Shown here piece after piece: positions 801 to 8,585 of a DNA stretch of 8,858 bases. How positions within the stretch are numbered: position 1 is the stretch's first letter; the number at the start of each line of letters is the position of its first letter. Origin of the DNA: Chloroflexota bacterium (lineage in GTDB: Bacteria; Chloroflexota; Anaerolineae; J102); the NCBI GenBank assembly GCA_013152695.1, contig JAADFV010000042.1:1-8858 (forward strand), in the 5' to 3' direction. Under the pieces are notes generated by a model. That model was not told the DNA's origin and did not search any database. It saw only the letters and a program-made list of their open reading frames with translations. A program made the position numbers and the translations under genes.

Positions 801-828
801 TTGACAACATCCTCAAAAAGTGTATAAT
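801..828 (+). promoter_or_regulatory. Sigma70-type promoter of the sulfur-assimilation leader
   Basis: A perfect -35 TTGACA (801-806) and a perfect -10 TATAAT (823-828) are separated by 16 bp. Transcription should begin near 834-837, about 45 nt before the first leader ORF. It is the only strong forward promoter seen between the selenoprotein gene and the sulfite reductase gene, so it probably serves the whole leader and operon. Confidence 0.85.
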
Positions 829-878: not shown

Positions 879-983
879 GTGTCAGTATCACTCAAGCACT
901 TACAAGCGCGTATCGAACTGAATGCATTGACCTGCATCTGTCGCCAGCGGGGCGTTAAGCACCGCGGTCGTCAGACAGGTTAA
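879..983 (+). CDS. Cys-codon leader peptide 1 of the sulfur-assimilation operon
   Basis: A 34-codon ORF starting at GTG 879, with a good Shine-Dalgarno AAAAGGA (863-869) 9 nt upstream and stop TAA 981-983. It lies about 45 nt after the predicted transcription start, as expected for a leader peptide. Its centre reads ALTCICRQRGVKH, with Cys codons TGC (933-935) and TGT (939-941). The core recurs in the second leader ORF of this transcript. Cys codons early in a leader whose terminator precedes cysteine-biosynthesis genes suggest a ribosome-stalling sensor of Cys-tRNA. The C-terminal half is basic. Cys-codon leader peptides upstream of sulfur genes are known in actinobacteria; I recognise no named family here. 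Translation is inferred from the ribosome-binding site and the conserved core. Confidence 0.65.
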   Translation: MSVSLKHLQARIELNALTCICRQRGVKHRGRQTG

Positions 984-1006
984 TTTTTGCTGAACAAGAA
1001 AGCCAG

Positions 1007-1065
1007 TCGACCCGGTGCCAAGCACTCCCGCTGTATCCAATCATGTTGGAGCGGGGTAGGGTCGA
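1007..1065 (+). other. Three-way-junction RNA fold in leader unit 1
   Basis: Closing helix TCGACCC (1007-1013) with GGGTCGA (1059-1065), 7 bp perfect. First arm GTGC (1015-1018) with GCAC (1022-1025), loop CAA. Second arm CCCGC (1027-1031) with GCGGG (1051-1055), a 4-nt bulge, then TCCAA (1036-1040) with TTGGA (1046-1050) and loop TCATG. I match it to no known riboswitch class. It could be only a spacer fold or a ligand-binding domain. Confidence 0.5.
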
Positions 1066-1076
1066 GGCAGAGTACC

Positions 1077-1104
1077 AAGCCTGGGACCCGTTCCCAGGCT
1101 TTTT
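1077..1104 (+). terminator. Intrinsic terminator, leader unit 1
   Basis: AAGCCTGGGA (1077-1086) pairs perfectly over 10 bp with TCCCAGGCTT (1092-1101) around the loop CCCGT. A run of five T (1100-1104) overlaps the end of the stem. It lies within the leader, before any large gene, so it acts either as an attenuator or as the end of a small RNA of about 270 nt. Confidence 0.85.
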
Positions 1105-1107
1105 GTA

Positions 1108-1120
1108 TTTCAGAGCTACG
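1108..1120 (+). repeat. 13-bp direct repeat shared by the two leader units, copy 1
   Basis: TTTCAGAGCTACG occurs here, just after terminator 1, and again identically at 1498-1510. A second shared word, CAGTCGACCC, is at 1004-1013 and 1519-1528, followed in both places by a CACTC word. These exact matches support common ancestry of the two leader units, though their order differs. Confidence 0.6.
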
Positions 1121-1192
1121 CTCCCTCCCTTTGCTTTGTATTGTCGCATTATCCTTGTAATTTTGATTCTTGCCGAGAGCACGACCAATGAA

Positions 1193-1248
1193 TTCGCAGC
1201 AGTTAGTAAAAGTGAATAGATTTGACTCATTCACTCCCTTGCTGCGAA
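1193..1248. repeat. Long inverted repeat before leader peptide 2
   Basis: The outer arms TTCGCAGCA (1193-1201) and TGCTGCGAA (1240-1248) are perfect over 9 bp. Nested inner arms AGTGAAT (1211-1217) and ATTCACT (1229-1235) are perfect over 7 bp. It could be an RNA hairpin near the second leader ORF, or a DNA operator. A TTGACT lies in its centre (1222-1227), but no -10 box sits at the right distance. Confidence 0.5.
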
Positions 1249-1262
1249 GTGTGAGACAAACC

Positions 1263-1334
1263 ATGCTGTATTTTCTTCATTGCATTTGTATGAGGCGGGG
1301 ACAACGACACCTCGCCTTCAGTAATCAGGGTTGA
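1263..1334 (+). CDS. Cys-codon leader peptide 2 of the sulfur-assimilation operon
   Basis: A 23-codon ORF from ATG 1263 to TGA 1332-1334. It encodes LHCICMRRGQRH, which matches the first leader peptide in the pattern L-x-C-I-C-x-x-R-G-x-(K/R)-H. Cys codons are TGC (1281-1283) and TGT (1287-1289). Both peptides end in Gly. The ribosome site is weak (GTGAG, 1251-1255). The same frame is open upstream to ATG 1188, which would give 48 residues behind GAGAG (1175-1179), so the start is unsettled. The 5' arm of a strong hairpin begins 6 nt after the second Cys codon, where a stalled ribosome would mask it. Function is inferred from the repeated core and the operon downstream. Confidence 0.55.
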   Translation: MLYFLHCICMRRGQRHLAFSNQG

Positions 1335-1374
1335 TTCTGGGTATCGAAGACGGTGCGAGGTGCGGTGTCCCCGC
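1295..1374 (+). promoter_or_regulatory. Extended hairpin overlapping leader peptide 2
   Basis: GCGGGGACA (1295-1303) pairs perfectly with TGTCCCCGC (1366-1374). After a small internal loop, CACCTCGC (1308-1315) pairs perfectly with GCGAGGTG (1355-1362). The apical part holds a further hairpin, CAG/CTG and AATCA (1323-1327) with TGATT (1332-1336), loop GGGT. The whole is an 80-nt RNA stem whose 5' arm is translated. CCCCG (1369-1373) could alternatively pair with CGGGG (1429-1433). The rest of the leader to 1550 includes another foldable stretch, GACAGG/CCTGTC flanking GGCC/GGCC. Confidence 0.6.
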
Positions 1375-1497
1375 ATGTGGGTCAAGGGCAGGTGAACTGC
1401 AGCTATCCGGTTGTTTAGCTTTTGGCACCGGGGCGCAGACATGGTGATAACGTAACGACAGGCCATTACGGCCGCGTGCATCTCCTGTCTCAGCCTT

Positions 1498-1551: not shown

Positions 1552-1642
1552 TGAGGGATATTCGTCCTCAAGTCACACCACCTCCGTATCTGCGCCACGG
1601 CAGGAAATGGGTGGCACGATGGTTGATTGTCGGCCTGGACGA
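1552..1642 (+). promoter_or_regulatory. Candidate antiterminator region, leader unit 2
   Basis: TCGTCC (1562-1567) can pair with GGACGA (1637-1642), which overlaps the base of the second terminator's 5' arm. The same bases can instead be tied up in the local hairpin TGAGGG (1552-1557) with TCCTCA (1565-1570). This allows two exclusive states, one permitting and one blocking termination. The helices are short and the switch is an inference. Confidence 0.3.
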
Positions 1643-1672
1643 GAGTCTCTCACATGGGACTCTCGTTTTTTT
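1640..1672 (+). terminator. Intrinsic terminator, leader unit 2
   Basis: CGAGAGTC (1640-1647) pairs perfectly with GACTCTCG (1658-1665), extendable by two pairs to a 6-nt loop, followed by seven T (1666-1672). It lies 60 bp before the sulfite reductase start, so operon expression must pass it. That makes it an attenuator unless an unseen promoter lies after it. Confidence 0.85.
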
Positions 1673-1732
1673 GTGGCGCGGATTTCATAACATTCCCAAA
1701 GCATTACCATCAGCAACGATAGGAGACTATTG

Positions 1733-3411: not shown

Positions 3412-4278
3412 ATGAACACTGAACATGATTTATTAGATGAATACGAAGCCGGTGAATTGGCTGTCGAATTCGACATAGAATCACCGCAAACGGTCCTCGA
3501 GTGGGTGTTGGCACGCTGGCACCCTCGCATTGCCATCTGCACCAGCTTTCAGGCTGAGGGCATGGTACTCCTGGATATGGCTTGGCGCATCAATCCCGAC
3601 ATACGGGTATTCACCGTGGATACGGGTCGTCTGCCTCAGGAAACCTATGACATCATCGAGGCGGTGCGGGATCGTTACAAGATCAATGTGGAAGTCTATT
3701 TCCCCGACGCCGCTCAAATACAAGCCATGGTACGCCTCTACGGCCCCAATCTTTTCTATAAGTCGATCGAGGCGCGGCTGTTATGCTGCAAGTTACGCAA
3801 AGTTGAGCCCCTAAGGGGGGTATTGGATGAGCTGGATGCCTGGATCACAGGATTGCGACGGGATCAATGGGCCAGTCGCGCCAACATTCGTAAGATCGAA
3901 ATCGATCACGATCATGGTGGCCTGGCTAAAATCAGCCCCCTGGCCGATTGGACCCATGACGAGGTCTGGGATTATATCCGCAGCCACGATGTCCCTTATC
4001 ATAAACTCTACGATCAGGGCTACACCAGCATTGGTTGCCGGCCCTGCACGCGGCTAACCAAGCCGGGTGAAGACCCGCGCGCCGGCCGTTGGTGGTGGGA
4101 AAAGAATGCCCCTAAAGAGTGCGGTATCCATTGCCCCCTCGAGAGCGGCGGTTTCGAACATGAATTGGAGGCTTTGTTGGGGAAGAGGCAGAGTGCTGCC
4201 TTCCCCGAAAGCAATTCTACGGCCAGTGACAGCAAAAATGGTCACACGGAGCGATCTCTTCTCGCTCAGGTGAAGTGA
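3412..4278 (+). CDS. cysH: Adenylylsulfate (APS) reductase, thioredoxin-dependent
   Basis: A 288-residue protein of the CysH family, which reduces activated sulfate to sulfite and so supplies the enzyme encoded upstream. The PP-loop-like segment TSFQAEGMVLLDM is near residues 44-56. The cysteine pairs LLCCKLR (Cys125, Cys126) and IGCRPC (Cys209, Cys212) are the [4Fe-4S] ligands that distinguish APS reductases from the cluster-free PAPS reductases. The catalytic ECGIH motif (Cys237) is present. ATG 3412 follows ACAGGAGG (3394-3401) at 10 nt. The gap to the sulfite reductase gene is 32 bp, and the next gene starts 1 bp after the stop, so the genes are cotranscribed. The C-terminal 45 residues or so are variable and polar. 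ATP sulfurylase is not in the window. Confidence 0.93.
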   Translation: MNTEHDLLDEYEAGELAVEFDIESPQTVLEWVLARWHPRIAICTSFQAEGMVLLDMAWRINPDIRVFTVDTGRLPQETYDIIEAVRDRYKINVEVYFPDAAQIQAMVRLYGPNLFYKSIEARLLCCKLRKVEPLRGVLDELDAWITGLRRDQWASRANIRKIEIDHDHGGLAKISPLADWTHDEVWDYIRSHDVPYHKLYDQGYTSIGCRPCTRLTKPGEDPRAGRWWWEKNAPKECGIHCPLESGGFEHELEALLGKRQSAAFPESNSTASDSKNGHTERSLLAQVK

Positions 4279-4279
4279 T

Positions 4280-4936
4280 ATGTCCTCCTATCCCGTGTGC
4301 CTGAATCTACAAGGCCGCAGTAGCCTCGTCATCGGTGGCGGTGCAGTTGCCGAAGGCAAAATCCAGGCCCTGCTCGCTGCCGGTGCTCAGGTTACTGTTA
4401 TTTCACCCCACCTCAATGACCGTCTTCAACAGTGGGCCGATCAAGGCCGTATCAGCCATGTCGCCAGTACCTACCGGCCCGGTGACCTGGACGGAAGCTT
4501 TTTGGTGATCAGTGCCACCGATAATCCCACTGTGAACGAACATATCTGGCAAGAAGCACACGAGCGGGGCATCCTCATCAATGTGGTGGATGCCCCCGCC
4601 CGTTGCACCTTTACCCTACCCGCCATCGTCCGCCGGGGCGATCTCACCGTAGCCATTGCTACAGGTGGGAAAGCCCCGGCCCTGGCCGTTCGCTTACGGG
4701 AACAGTTAGAAAACCTCATCGGCCAGGAGTACGGCCGGTTTTTGGAATTAGCCGGAGAACTGCGTCTACCCCTGGCCAAACGCTATCCTGACTTCGAGCA
4801 GCGCCGGGCGTTATGGTACCGCTTAGTGGATTCAGACGTGCTCGAATTATTGCGTCGTGGTGATGAAGCAGCAGCCCGGCAGCGGATAGGAGAGATTACG
4901 GGTCTCACCTTGGAGGTCATCGCTCATGATGATTGA
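4280..4936 (+). CDS. sirC: Precorrin-2 dehydrogenase / sirohydrochlorin ferrochelatase (CysG N-domain, Met8 type)
   Basis: A 218-residue protein that carries out the last steps of siroheme synthesis: NAD-dependent oxidation of precorrin-2 to sirohydrochlorin and, in bifunctional members, iron insertion. An N-terminal Rossmann fold shows VIGGGAVAEGK (about residues 17-27). The conserved NVVDAPARCTFTLPAIVRRGDL segment (near 102-122) includes the Asp important for catalysis in this family, followed by IATGGKAPALA. Length fits stand-alone members. The start is 1 bp after the cysH stop, with AGGTGA (4268-4273) as ribosome site inside cysH. It overlaps cobA by 11 bp. Together the two genes equal the enterobacterial CysG fusion, here as separate proteins. 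Whether it also chelates iron cannot be told from the sequence. Confidence 0.88.
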   Translation: MSSYPVCLNLQGRSSLVIGGGAVAEGKIQALLAAGAQVTVISPHLNDRLQQWADQGRISHVASTYRPGDLDGSFLVISATDNPTVNEHIWQEAHERGILINVVDAPARCTFTLPAIVRRGDLTVAIATGGKAPALAVRLREQLENLIGQEYGRFLELAGELRLPLAKRYPDFEQRRALWYRLVDSDVLELLRRGDEAAARQRIGEITGLTLEVIAHDD

Positions 4937-5726
4937 TTACAGAATGGAGCACGGCATGGCAGGCCGCGGCATCGTGTACCTCATCGGCGCCGGTCCAGGC
5001 GATCCCGACCTCATCACCGTACGTGGGCGGGATTGCCTGCGCCAGGCGGATGTCGTTATCTATGATCGTCTTGTCAATGCAGCCCTGCTGGCAGAGGCCC
5101 CGCCGCAGGCCGAGACCATCTACGCCGGTAAGTTACCCGGCAATCATCGCCTGAGCCAGGAGGCCATCAATTACCTTCTCATCGAGAGAGCGCGCGCGGG
5201 CCAGGTGGTAGTACGCCTCAAAGGTGGTGATCCCTTCGTCTTTGGGCGTGGTGGTGAAGAAGCCGCCGCCTGTGCCGCTGCCGGCGTGCGCTGGGAAGTG
5301 GTTCCCGGCGTCTCCAGTGCCGTGAGTGTACCCGCCAGCGCTGGTATTCCCGTGACACACCGCGATATCTCCGGCGTTTTTACGGTGGTTACCGCTCACC
5401 GCGCCCAAGACCGTGAGAAGCTGAATTGGGCGGCATTGGCGCAGATGGAGACGCTGATCGTCTTGATGGGTGTCAAGCGCCTGCCGTATGTCGTGGCCAT
5501 GCTCCTGGGCGAAGGGCGTGCTCCTGACACTCCCGTGGCGATCATCGAACGCGGTACCCAACCTGACGAACGTGTGACCACAGGGACCCTCGCCGATATC
5601 GTGCAGCAGGCCAGTGCCATCGGTGTCCGCTCGCCCGCGACCATCGTTATCGGCGAAGTCGTGCGCTTACGAGAGCAGTTGCTGGGGACATGGGTCTCGC
5701 CCAAAAGTGTGAGTCTTAGTCTGTAA
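4926..5726 (+). CDS. cobA: Uroporphyrinogen-III C-methyltransferase (SUMT)
   Basis: A 266-residue SAM-dependent methyltransferase that converts uroporphyrinogen III to precorrin-2, the substrate of the preceding enzyme. The family signatures are clear: VYLIGAGPGDPDLITVRG near the N-terminus, VVRLKGGDPFVFGRGGEE around residues 96-113, and VPGVSSAVSVPASAGIPVTHR after it. ATG 4926 is favoured because GGAGGT (4912-4917) is 8 nt upstream; Met codons at 4929, 4944 and 4956 are alternatives, and the conserved region begins after residue 14. It overlaps the previous gene by 11 bp, suggesting coupled translation. There is no HemD fusion. It is the last gene of the operon, and no strong terminator follows. 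Confidence 0.93.
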   Translation: MMIDYRMEHGMAGRGIVYLIGAGPGDPDLITVRGRDCLRQADVVIYDRLVNAALLAEAPPQAETIYAGKLPGNHRLSQEAINYLLIERARAGQVVVRLKGGDPFVFGRGGEEAAACAAAGVRWEVVPGVSSAVSVPASAGIPVTHRDISGVFTVVTAHRAQDREKLNWAALAQMETLIVLMGVKRLPYVVAMLLGEGRAPDTPVAIIERGTQPDERVTTGTLADIVQQASAIGVRSPATIVIGEVVRLREQLLGTWVSPKSVSLSL

Positions 5727-6018: not shown

Positions 6019-6402
6019 ATGCTACTTGTTACCGACACCACCACCGGTCTCGCTGTCAAAGCTAAATTTTTTCGTGGTTTCAGCGATCCCTCACGTTTGA
6101 GCATTATCGACGCCCTACGCGCCGGGCCGCTTACCGTAGGTGAAATCACGGAGGCTACCGGCCTTTCCCAATCCAATGTCTCCAATCATTTGGGCTGTTT
6201 ACGGGGTTGTGGTCTGGTAGTGGCCGAACGTGAGGGACGCTACATGACCTACCATCTGAGCGATGATCGCGTCGCTGAGATCCTCGTCCTGGCTGAATCG
6301 TTATTGGCCGATGTGGCGCGTGGCGTTTATGAATGTACACGCTACAACGTTCGTCAGGCCAAACCTTTGGCGCCGGCAGACAACCAGGACACACAATCAT
6401 GA
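6019..6402 (+). CDS. ArsR/SmtB-family metal-sensing repressor, CmtR-like
   Basis: A 127-residue winged-helix repressor. The helix-turn-helix lies around LTVGEITEATGLSQSNVSNHLGCLRGCGLV, and the wing is REGRYMTYHLS. The Cys-x3-Cys of LGCLRGCG (Cys60, Cys64) plus a C-terminal Cys106 correspond in spacing to the Cd(II)/Pb(II) ligands of mycobacterial CmtR (Cys57, Cys61, Cys102). This differs from the ELCVCDL site of CadC and ArsR. Metal binding should release it from the dyad at its own promoter. ATG 6019 follows GGAG (6009-6012) at 6 nt. The stop overlaps the ATPase start as ATGA (6399-6402), so the efflux pump is translated with its sensor. The metal assignment is by analogy, not proven. Confidence 0.87.
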   Translation: MLLVTDTTTGLAVKAKFFRGFSDPSRLSIIDALRAGPLTVGEITEATGLSQSNVSNHLGCLRGCGLVVAEREGRYMTYHLSDDRVAEILVLAESLLADVARGVYECTRYNVRQAKPLAPADNQDTQS

Positions 6403-8585
6403 GCCAAGATTTGCATACTCTGGAATTGCGCCTTGCTAATCTCGATTGTGAGCATGACGCGGCCGCGCTCGAACGGGGATTATCCGGACTCGCAGGCCTG
6501 GACTCGTTGAAAGTCTATCCAAAATCGGCGAAAGTTGTCCTGGTCTATGATGCGAGCATGATTGATGACGCTGGTTTGCGGGAGAAACTAGAAAACCTTG
6601 GCTTTCCTCCCCAGACGGGTTTGAGTCTTCCCGAGCCGCCTCCGCCCTGGCGCAATCCCAAAGTCCTGACATCGCTGGCGTCGGGTGTTCTGCTATTGAC
6701 GGGTTGGTTGTTGAGCCTGGTTGGGTTACCGGAAATGGTCTCGTCTGGGCTTTATCTGCTTTCTCTTCTGGTAGGAGGCTATTATTTTGGTCGCGAAGCT
6801 TTGGAAGAACTGGTTTTCGAGCGGGAAATCGGTATTGAGCTGCTCATGGTCGTGGCGGCAGTGGTGGCAGCATTCATGGGGCAGGCGGCAGAGGGAGCAA
6901 TGTTGGTTTTCCTCTACAGCATTAGCGAAGCGGCCGAAGGCTACACCGAGGAGAAAACCCGTTCCGCGATCAAGGCTCTGATGGAGCTGGCACCCAGAGT
7001 CGCATTAGTGCGACGAGAGGGTATCGAGCAAGAGATTCCTGTGGAAGAGTTAAACGTCGGTGACATTTTCATCGTCAAGCCGGGGCAATCCCTTCCCACA
7101 GATGGCGAAATCATCTCCGGACATTCGAGTGTGAACCAGGCGCCGGTCACAGGCGAGAGCGTTCCCGTAGAAAAAGGCACCGGTGACGTGGTTTTTGCTG
7201 GCAGCATCAACGGTGAGGGCGCCCTGGAGGTACGAGCTACAAAAACGTTTGCCAACAACACGATTGCCCGTATCATTCAGATGGTCGAGGAAGCCCAAGA
7301 GCGCAAAGGCAAGAGTCAGCGCTTCATTGAGCGCTTTGGCAAATGGTATAGTCCGACCGTTTTACTTCTCGGTATCCTCATTGCTATCATTCCTCCCCTA
7401 TTGTGGGCAGCGGAATGGACGACGTGGATCACGCGTGCTACTGTTTTCATTGTCGCCGCCGCTCCTTGTGCCCTGGTGATCTCTATCCCCATCACCTTGG
7501 TGGCAACCCTGGGCACCGGTGCCCGCAATGGTGTACTGATCAAGGGCGGCATCTATGTGGAGGAATTGGCCAAAGTACAGGTAGTGGCCTTAGACAAAAC
7601 CGGCACTATCACCAGCGGAGAACCGGCAGTAACGGATATTTTAATTTCGGAATCCGGATTCGCGAGTGCAAATTTCCCTCTCCCGACCACGGGTCACGAT
7701 CCCCAGACTGTACTCCTCTCACTCGCGGCAGCCGTGGAGAGTCGCAGCGAGCATCCCCTGGCCCGCGCCATCACGCGGGCAGCAGAGCAACGAGAGGTGG
7801 TCGTTCCATCTGTGCGGAATTTTACGGCACTGCGTGGTGCCGGCGCCCATGGGCAGATCAATGGGCAATCGCTCATTGTGGGAAGCCCGGACATGTTTTC
7901 AGAGGTTCTGGCAGGCGAAAACGACTTTCAGAAACAGATCGAGCGCCTTCAGGTTGAGGGTAAAACCGTTGTGCTCGTGGGCCAAGCTTCGCACGATCAC
8001 CCGGCCAGTGTCTCTCGCCCCACCTCTCTTCTCGGCCTCATCGCCATCCGTGACGAAGTGCGTGCCAACGCTCGCCAGGCCATTACCGCGCTTCACGCCA
8101 TCGGCATCAAGCGCGTGGTGATGCTCACAGGGGACAACCAACGTACGGCGCAGGCTATTGCCCAGGAGGTGGGTGTGGATGCCTTCTTTGCCGACCTCAA
8201 GCCAGAAGATAAAGTAGTGAAGGTACGGGAGCTGGCCGAACATTACGGGCACGTAGCCATGGTGGGTGATGGCGTCAACGATGCACCGGCCCTGGCAGAA
8301 GCGACCGTGGGTATAGCGATGGGGGCTGCCGGCACCGACGTGGCCCTGGAAACGGCAGATGTGGCACTCATGGCCGATGATCTCGAAAAACTGGTCTACG
8401 CTCTGCAGTTGGCTCGACGCAACCAGGCGGTGGTGCGGCAAAATCTGTTCCTCTCGGCCGTGGTCATCAGCACCCTCGTGATCGGTGCTGTCGGCGGCGC
8501 CTTCACTTTACCTGTGGCAGTGTTGGGGCACGAACTCAGCGAGTTCGTCGTGATCGGCAGCGGCCTGCGCATGTTACGAACTTGA
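6399..8585 (+). CDS. P1B-type heavy-metal efflux ATPase with APC and HELSE motifs
   Basis: A 728-residue ATP-driven metal exporter of the inner membrane, probably for Cd/Pb/Zn or a related divalent ion. An N-terminal HMA-like domain (about 7-70) has NLDCEHD (Cys17) instead of the usual CxxC. Then come four membrane helices, the actuator domain with TGES (251-254), two helices, the phosphorylation site DKTGT (Asp399), the nucleotide domain with the HP pair (His452-Pro453), GDGVND (623-628) and two last helices. The helix-6 motif is A355-P356-C357, where CPC is usual in Zn/Cd pumps and SPC in P1B-4 pumps. The last helix has GHELSEFVVIGSGLRML (His711-Glu715), recalling the HEGGT/HEGST motif of P1B-4. 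ATG 6399 is chosen for its ATGA overlap with the repressor gene; an in-frame ATG at 6333 lies deep inside that gene. Confidence 0.92.
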   Translation: MSQDLHTLELRLANLDCEHDAAALERGLSGLAGLDSLKVYPKSAKVVLVYDASMIDDAGLREKLENLGFPPQTGLSLPEPPPPWRNPKVLTSLASGVLLLTGWLLSLVGLPEMVSSGLYLLSLLVGGYYFGREALEELVFEREIGIELLMVVAAVVAAFMGQAAEGAMLVFLYSISEAAEGYTEEKTRSAIKALMELAPRVALVRREGIEQEIPVEELNVGDIFIVKPGQSLPTDGEIISGHSSVNQAPVTGESVPVEKGTGDVVFAGSINGEGALEVRATKTFANNTIARIIQMVEEAQERKGKSQRFIERFGKWYSPTVLLLGILIAIIPPLLWAAEWTTWITRATVFIVAAAPCALVISIPITLVATLGTGARNGVLIKGGIYVEELAKVQVVALDKTGTITSGEPAVTDILISESGFASANFPLPTTGHDPQTVLLSLAAAVESRSEHPLARAITRAAEQREVVVPSVRNFTALRGAGAHGQINGQSLIVGSPDMFSEVLAGENDFQKQIERLQVEGKTVVLVGQASHDHPASVSRPTSLLGLIAIRDEVRANARQAITALHAIGIKRVVMLTGDNQRTAQAIAQEVGVDAFFADLKPEDKVVKVRELAEHYGHVAMVGDGVNDAPALAEATVGIAMGAAGTDVALETADVALMADDLEKLVYALQLARRNQAVVRQNLFLSAVVISTLVIGAVGGAFTLPVAVLGHELSEFVVIGSGLRMLRT

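Follow-up and report, generated by a model that had tools for sequence, protein, structure and literature searches.

Genetic organization of the locus

The window, i.e. the whole stretch of DNA that was analyzed (8,858 nt), comes from a Caldilineae-like member of the Chloroflexota, and the protein encoded by its sir gene shares 89% identity with those of the related loci L001 and L002, 78% with that of L003 and 76% with that of L004. A promoter and a sulfur operon were distinguished:

801..828, + strand: predicted sigma-70 type promoter (TTGACA-16-TATAAT), matching the consensus at 12 of 12 positions; -35 and -10 alike in L001 and L002
1733..3379, + strand: sir, siroheme-type reductase of the NirA/sulfite reductase family (all NCBIfam models below their cut-offs)
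3412..4278, + strand: cysH, APS/PAPS reductase (TIGR02055 above cut-off)
4280..5726, + strand: siroheme synthase (NAD-binding, CysG-type) and tetrapyrrole methylase

The identification of a sir-type reductase, an APS reductase, a siroheme synthase and a tetrapyrrole methylase bears out an earlier note on this DNA, which had placed a sulfide-making operon behind two leader peptides. Between the promoter and sir lie two short open reading frames:

879..983, + strand: leader ORF1, GTG start (ATG in L002), peptide MSVSLKHLQARIELNALTCICRQRGVKHRGRQTG
933..941, + strand: putative regulatory Cys-Ile-Cys codons of ORF1 (TGC ATC TGT)
1263..1334, + strand: leader ORF2, ATG start, peptide MLYFLHCICMRRGQRHLAFSNQG
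1281..1289, + strand: putative regulatory Cys-Ile-Cys codons of ORF2 (TGC ATT TGT)

Their starts are 384 nt apart, matching the spacing of about 380 nt given earlier, and the open frame of ORF2 extends upstream to a TTG at position 1170. The proposed common core, LxCICxxRGx(K/R)H, is present in both: LTCICRQRGVKH and LHCICMRRGQRH are identical at L, C, I, C, R, G and H, i.e. at 7 of 12 positions. Neither peptide gave a match in Pfam or NCBIfam, and promoter prediction on the + strand revealed no promoter-like site between ORF1 and ORF2. Together, ORF1 and ORF2 give the impression of paired cysteine sensors.

The remainder of the window contains two other modules. Positions 6019-8585, 3' of the sulfur operon, encode an ArsR/SmtB-type regulator (CmtR-like, below the cut-off) followed by a P-type metal ATPase. 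Positions 27-767 carry a DsbA-like thioredoxin gene with an in-frame TGA (306-308) at the expected first Cys of the CPYC motif (DFQ-stop-PYC). With the TGA taken as selenocysteine, its product matches Thioredoxin_4 and DSBA, and SelB scored above the cut-off in three of four related genomes vs. two of 14 controls; the gene possibly encodes a selenoprotein. The Rfam covariance models gave no match above the gathering score in the whole window, and a tRNA scan of the window and of the L001-L004 stretches found no tRNA.

Occurrence of the leader in Chloroflexota and Armatimonadota

The earlier note had named recurrence of the motif in related leaders as a check, and the motif was indeed found in further sir leaders and ahead of other sulfur genes. 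Of 58 sir loci collected, the scan covered the 54 that include a gene start, several of them with little upstream sequence (e.g. L036 and L037). Nine Chloroflexota loci (L001-L004, L011, L025, L029, L031 and L032) have a short ORF encoding C-x-C-x-x-RG ahead of sir, and one Armatimonadota locus (L058) has such an ORF ahead of sat. The remaining 44 of the 54 scanned loci showed no leader, including six of Chloroflexota with none recognizable (L005-L008, L022 and L047); motif matches of L002 at 9404, L024, L046 and L047 were left out of the counts. Searching 150 genomes from the class, 10 of which had sir at E 1e-80, added the sir leaders L162, L108 and L169. One of these genomes (G098) carries, besides a sir gene with a leader, a second, distant sir-like paralogue (L170; 37% identity) without a clear Cys leader.

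Two copies of the element occur in seven of 13 sir leaders (the window, L001, L002, L003, L011, L162 and L169), a count that includes one degenerate copy each in L001 (RR) and L002 (RS); L004, L025, L029, L031, L032 and L108 have a single copy. The RNA strands that follow the cysteine codons (strands A, see below) are alike in both copies (GCGGGGGCA-T-AGCACC-CG in L003), which suggests that the tandem arose by duplication. Locus L169, opened only after the present reading had been formed, fits it: the leader is tandem, the second Cys codon is UGU in both copies, and the strands A and B pair with z of -3.0 and -1.5, the second copy containing a ten-base match (ACGAGGGCGG/CCGCCCTCGT). Having been added last, L169 stands outside the counts of 29, 52 and 85 used here.

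Leaders of the same type precede a range of other genes, 13 representatives of which were profiled (rhodanese, cysM equivalog and NirA models below their cut-offs), the rest being named by likeness: (i) cysK (L094 and L107), (ii) cysteine synthase B-like (cysM) genes (L111 and L129), (iii) rhodanese genes, mercaptopyruvate sulfurtransferase-like (L089-L092, L112, L126, L128 and L194), (iv) sat (L078), (v) ThiF-rhodanese genes (L096, L136, L138, L151, L152, L159 and L185), (vi) genes for NMT1-type ABC binding proteins (L097, L135, L141 and L153), (vii) TusA (L098 and L140), (viii) DUF4395 (L178, L182, L187 and others), (ix) a Cys/Met-metabolism PLP enzyme (L188), and (x) RimK-like ATP-grasp proteins (L192, L195 and L196). 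The leader peptide is also present in L139 and L157, which stand outside these gene groups.

A strict DNA pattern yielded 27 matches in 400 Chloroflexota genomes, eight of them sulfur leaders (in five genomes), and 26 matches in 43 Armatimonadota genomes, 23 of them sulfur leaders; the other 19 Chloroflexota matches and L145, L146 and L147 of Armatimonadota were set aside as not leader-like. Reversed-pattern controls, counted from tables, gave 38 matches in Chloroflexota (vs. 27) and 13 in Armatimonadota (vs. 26), and another Chloroflexota pattern count gave 74 matches vs. 82 for its reversed control. Since the pattern is not enriched over the Chloroflexota controls, the DNA pattern alone proves nothing in that phylum. 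All of 10 additional pattern matches were set aside except those of G425, G428 and G442, as were L093 (contig edge), L099, L102, L103 and L104.

A peptide profile placed a leader at opened loci in 28 of the 43 Armatimonadota genomes; of the 45 places opened, all but L191 fitted (44), with L200 and other unopened rows outside the count. The resulting 56 Armatimonadota elements comprise L171-L190, L192-L199, L201-L216 and 12 derived from the pattern. The Armatimonadota profile was also run against 40 additional genomes, namely nine Chloroflexota that carry leaders, further Chloroflexota and members of other phyla. It gave 25 matches with E values of at most 0.5 (lowest 0.0116), and none of the seven loci opened among these (L217, L218, L219, L221, L225, L227 and L238) was a sulfur leader. 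The profile does not detect the Chloroflexota form of the leader, and its negative result in other phyla covers the Armatimonadota form only.

RNA folding and a model of attenuation

The following RNA elements were predicted in the leader:

947..970, + strand: strand A1 (RG and KH codons of ORF1), complementary to B1 (duplex z -4.5; 14-16 of 17 pairs kept in six related sequences)
1008..1031, + strand: strand B1, pairs with A1 or C1
1050..1068, + strand: strand C1, pairs with B1 or, as an antiterminator, with the 5' arm of T1
1077..1105 (stem 1077-1101), + strand: intrinsic terminator T1 with a T-run (9-10 of 10 stem pairs kept in six related sequences)
1294..1316, + strand: strand A2 (ORF2 codons from RG onwards), complementary to B2 (duplex z -5.9)
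1354..1375, + strand: strand B2, can also self-fold
1637..1674 (predicted 1637-1668), + strand: terminator-like hairpin T2 with a T-run; stem and T-run alike in L002, L003 and L162, imperfect in L001

The hairpins of attenuator 1 are mutually exclusive, A:B together with C:T5' vs. B:C together with T1, and the pairs are kept in the window, L001-L004 and L162 (A:B 14-16 of 17, B:C 9-13 of 13, C:T5' 5-8 of 8, T1 9-10 of 10). The element was folded with imposed ribosome positions and several RNA 3' ends, the front edge of the ribosome being assumed at 15 nt from the P-site codon. With this edge a stall at the first Cys codon exposes strand A from its first base, and a ribosome at the second Cys codon or at the stop codon covers it partly or wholly; the start of strand A lies at an identical distance in 55 of the 56 Armatimonadota elements. 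For RNA ending at 1093, a stall at the first Cys codon gave A:B at 0.87 and the antiterminator at 0.86, and a stall at the second gave A:B at 0.61, B:C at 0.45 and the antiterminator at 0.94. A ribosome at the stop codon gave B:C at 0.89 and the antiterminator at 0.0, and RNA free of ribosomes gave B:C at 0.86. For the shorter RNA ending at 1066 with a stall at the first Cys codon, B:C (0.72) prevailed over A:B (0.17). Once the terminator was complete, T1 reached 0.92 (stop codon), 0.96 (no ribosome), 0.73 (first Cys codon) and 0.96 (second Cys codon), with A:B at only 0.35 for the first Cys codon. The stalled state is thus unstable once T1 is complete, so antitermination would have to be kinetic; among the 29 Chloroflexota elements scanned, the terminator arm mostly remains paired at equilibrium in the stalled state.

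We propose that the leader is composed of two related, cysteine-responsive, ribosome-mediated attenuators in series, a reading to which we assign a probability of about 0.78. Recurrence, the nature of the downstream genes and the layout of attenuator 1 lend in silico support to the tandem cysteine attenuators postulated in the earlier note. The motif, the A:B complementarity and its survival through sequence changes, T1 and the recurrence before sulfur genes are features of the DNA itself; translation, stalling, the response to cysteine and co-transcriptional timing are the parts of the attenuation model that we infer. A ribosome would translate the short Cys-x-Cys ORF, whose ensuing CGG GGN (Arg-Gly) codons would double as strand A. 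With sufficient charged tRNA-Cys, it would reach the stop codon and cover A, so that B pairs with C, T1 forms and the operon is off. With charged tRNA-Cys in short supply, it would stall at the first Cys codon with its front edge just before A; the exposed A would capture B, leaving C free for the 5' arm of T1 and permitting readthrough towards sir-cysH.

Attenuator 2 is less complete, and the A:B pair is the only one of its switch hairpins that was found. An intrinsic terminator had been claimed after each ORF: the claim holds for ORF1, where T1 (1077-1101) is close by, and fails for ORF2, which has no adjoining terminator, the next predicted one (1637-1668, T2) lying about 300 nt past its end. 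Folding and a duplex search for a link between B2 and T2 gave none that was convincing. The missing adjacent terminator could also mean that the output is translational, with A:B and its alternatives exposing or hiding a ribosome binding site, possibly in attenuator 2 and in the Armatimonadota leaders, whose B strands follow close behind the ORF, the stretches read showing no T-runs. We regard such an output as unlikely, as in most of the Chloroflexota leaders scanned the first or only element is followed by T1 or T-runs.

Nucleotide and peptide conservation around the Cys-x-Cys motif

In the earlier note, RG, K/R and H were listed as conserved residues and as a hint that the peptide itself might matter, e.g. 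within the ribosome tunnel. Relatives keep neither K/R nor H, the G after R varies too, and these residues track an RNA pairing strand instead, the CGG-GGN DNA corresponding to strand A, which pairs with the downstream strand B. The stretch encoding KH in the window begins with a stop codon (TAA) in ORF1 of L004 and ORF2 of L003; the L004 stretch TTAAGCACC contains this TAA, and one base fewer in the window gives Lys-His. RG is replaced by RS in ORF1 of L002 and by RR in ORF2 of L001, a stop codon (TAG) ahead of CGGGGG in L094 leaves RG past the stop, and strand A is shifted by one base in L212. In the 56 Armatimonadota leaders, Arg is followed by G (24), R (28), E (3) or K (1), with A:B pairing retained. 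Pairing thus outlasts replacement of that residue (by R, S, E or K), an earlier stop and a frame shift, and B matches the change in several cases; residue or codon and partner change together in GCGGGAG/CTCCCGC (L185), GCGAAGG/CCTTCGC (L190) and GCGGAAG/CTTTCGC (L197, one G-U). The Arg codon is CGG in 79 of 85 elements vs. 33% in nearby genes.

The A:B duplex had z below -2 relative to shuffles in 23 of 29 Chloroflexota elements (not in the other six). In a partner permutation test, which like the others below ignores the kinship of the loci, the Chloroflexota elements had a mean of -36.2 with their own partners vs. a permuted mean of -28.1 (best -31.0), none of 10000 permutations being as good; the same result (0 of 10000) was obtained with 17 representatives. 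Taken singly, 16 of the 29 A strands favor their own partner over the RNA of every other family, and in 13 another pairs equally well or better. The same duplex test on 23 Armatimonadota elements put only two under z -2, as it looked for partners from +40 onwards and these are often nearer; it was redone by 7-base scoring of all 56. Fifty-three of these score at least 6.5 of 7, 26 have perfect Watson-Crick A:B pairing (permuted mean 15.6, maximum 25 in 5000 permutations) and their mean score is 6.71 (permuted maximum 6.63 in 5000 permutations), figures that carry an ascertainment bias: GCGGGG itself had served to find 12 of the 56 and most of the non-sir Chloroflexota elements, and the remaining 44 were retrieved with a profile derived from such peptides, 11 of these 44 being pattern matches too.

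The residues shared beyond the cysteines are most plausibly the imprint of an RNA switch strand on the coding sequence, and not a working peptide. In an arrest peptide, the residues at the stall site would persist while their codons changed synonymously; RG and KH follow the nucleotides, and peptide arrest was rejected as their cause in view of the codons and the compensatory changes. That CICxxRG(K/R)H itself stalls the ribosome from within the tunnel is, more generally, quite improbable: RG is encoded in 26 of the 29 Chloroflexota elements (L094 excluded, as its stop comes first), yet K/R-H is absent in relatives and RG gives way to RS, RR, RE or RK, or falls after the stop, with pairing kept. 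The residues ahead of CIC, variable in Chloroflexota, also speak against arrest; those of Armatimonadota speak for it, Pro-Arg preceding X-CIC in 55 of 56 elements despite synonymous codons (four Pro and four CGN Arg codons). This Pro-Arg, judged from sequence, is a case of selection at the peptide level, located upstream of the cysteines. That two GC-rich leader ORFs resemble each other by chance, for which one could cite the 19 of 27 strict-pattern Chloroflexota matches that are not leaders, is scarcely conceivable given the same position in relatives, the two copies in seven of 13 sir leaders, the permutation tests and the sulfur genes downstream.

The cysteine codons are constrained as well. 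The second is UGU in 85 of 85 elements from two phyla (939-941 and 1287-1289 in the window) and the first is UGC in 61 and UGU in 24, the ratio in sampled genes being 119 UGC to 19 UGU; the middle codon is AUC in 76 of 85. Tentatively, and with more doubt than confidence, the Chloroflexota/Armatimonadota class may be viewed as a ribosome ruler, in which the first Cys codon lies at a near-fixed distance from the switch strand and one or two codons flip the RNA, with the stall tuned by the wobble-read UGU and by the Armatimonadota Pro-Arg, i.e. a hybrid of codon starvation and nascent-peptide control. The near-fixed distance and the invariant UGU give predictions on the stall site that can be tested with reporters. 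Attenuation as proposed here would mean a further cysteine-responsive regulon controlled by RNA, spread over two phyla, and a conserved-looking leader peptide that can be a mere reading of an RNA strand calls for caution in small-protein annotation.

Comparison with known systems

In the enterobacterial trp and his attenuators, alternating hairpins are set by the position of the ribosome and a terminator stands at the end. The leaders described here resemble them in their predicted alternating hairpins and, for attenuator 1, in the presence of a terminator, and in having short ORFs with codons for the amino acid of the pathway; they differ in that amino acid and in the near-fixed distance of strand A after the first Cys codon. 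Searches of the openly accessible literature, mostly at the level of search results, gave no cysteine leader-peptide control for Chloroflexota or Armatimonadota, and this leader class is not described in the accessible parts of PMC1262725, PMC13236596, PMC4833913, PMC9031893, PMC9094748, PMC2965389, PMC8632094, PMC8079986 and PMC1183508.

The uORFC-8-2 motif, according to the available portion of its description (PMC8632094), is a predicted cysteine attenuator located before cysS in Rhodobacterales. It likewise combines a short ORF with two Cys codons, a stem holding them and an intrinsic terminator, and ribosome-mediated attenuation was proposed for it. Its Cys codons are adjacent and mostly UGC, its hosts alphaproteobacteria and its target a tRNA synthetase gene, whereas the present leaders have Cys-x-Cys with UGU as the second codon, precede biosynthesis genes, occur in other phyla and are found in tandem.

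Mycobacterial polycysteine short ORFs confer cysteine-dependent attenuation, as summarized in excerpts of later papers (Canestrari 2020, via PMC9031893, PMC9094748 and PMC13236596), and in the accessible text of PMC1262725 such Cys ORFs were predicted without terminators. They share with the present leaders the short Cys-coding ORF ahead of cysteine genes and attenuation, which is predicted here. As far as these excerpts describe them, they are leaderless, with contiguous Cys codons and no conserved terminator, in contrast to the 5' leader, Cys-x-Cys and T1 of the window, where the predicted promoter ends about 50 nt before the GTG at 879. The mgtCBR operon of Salmonella, in the part of PMC3641672 available, is preceded by tandem attenuators with two leader ORFs answering two different signals (ATP and proline); the window has the same arrangement of two serial ORFs in one leader RNA, here both with the same cysteine signature.
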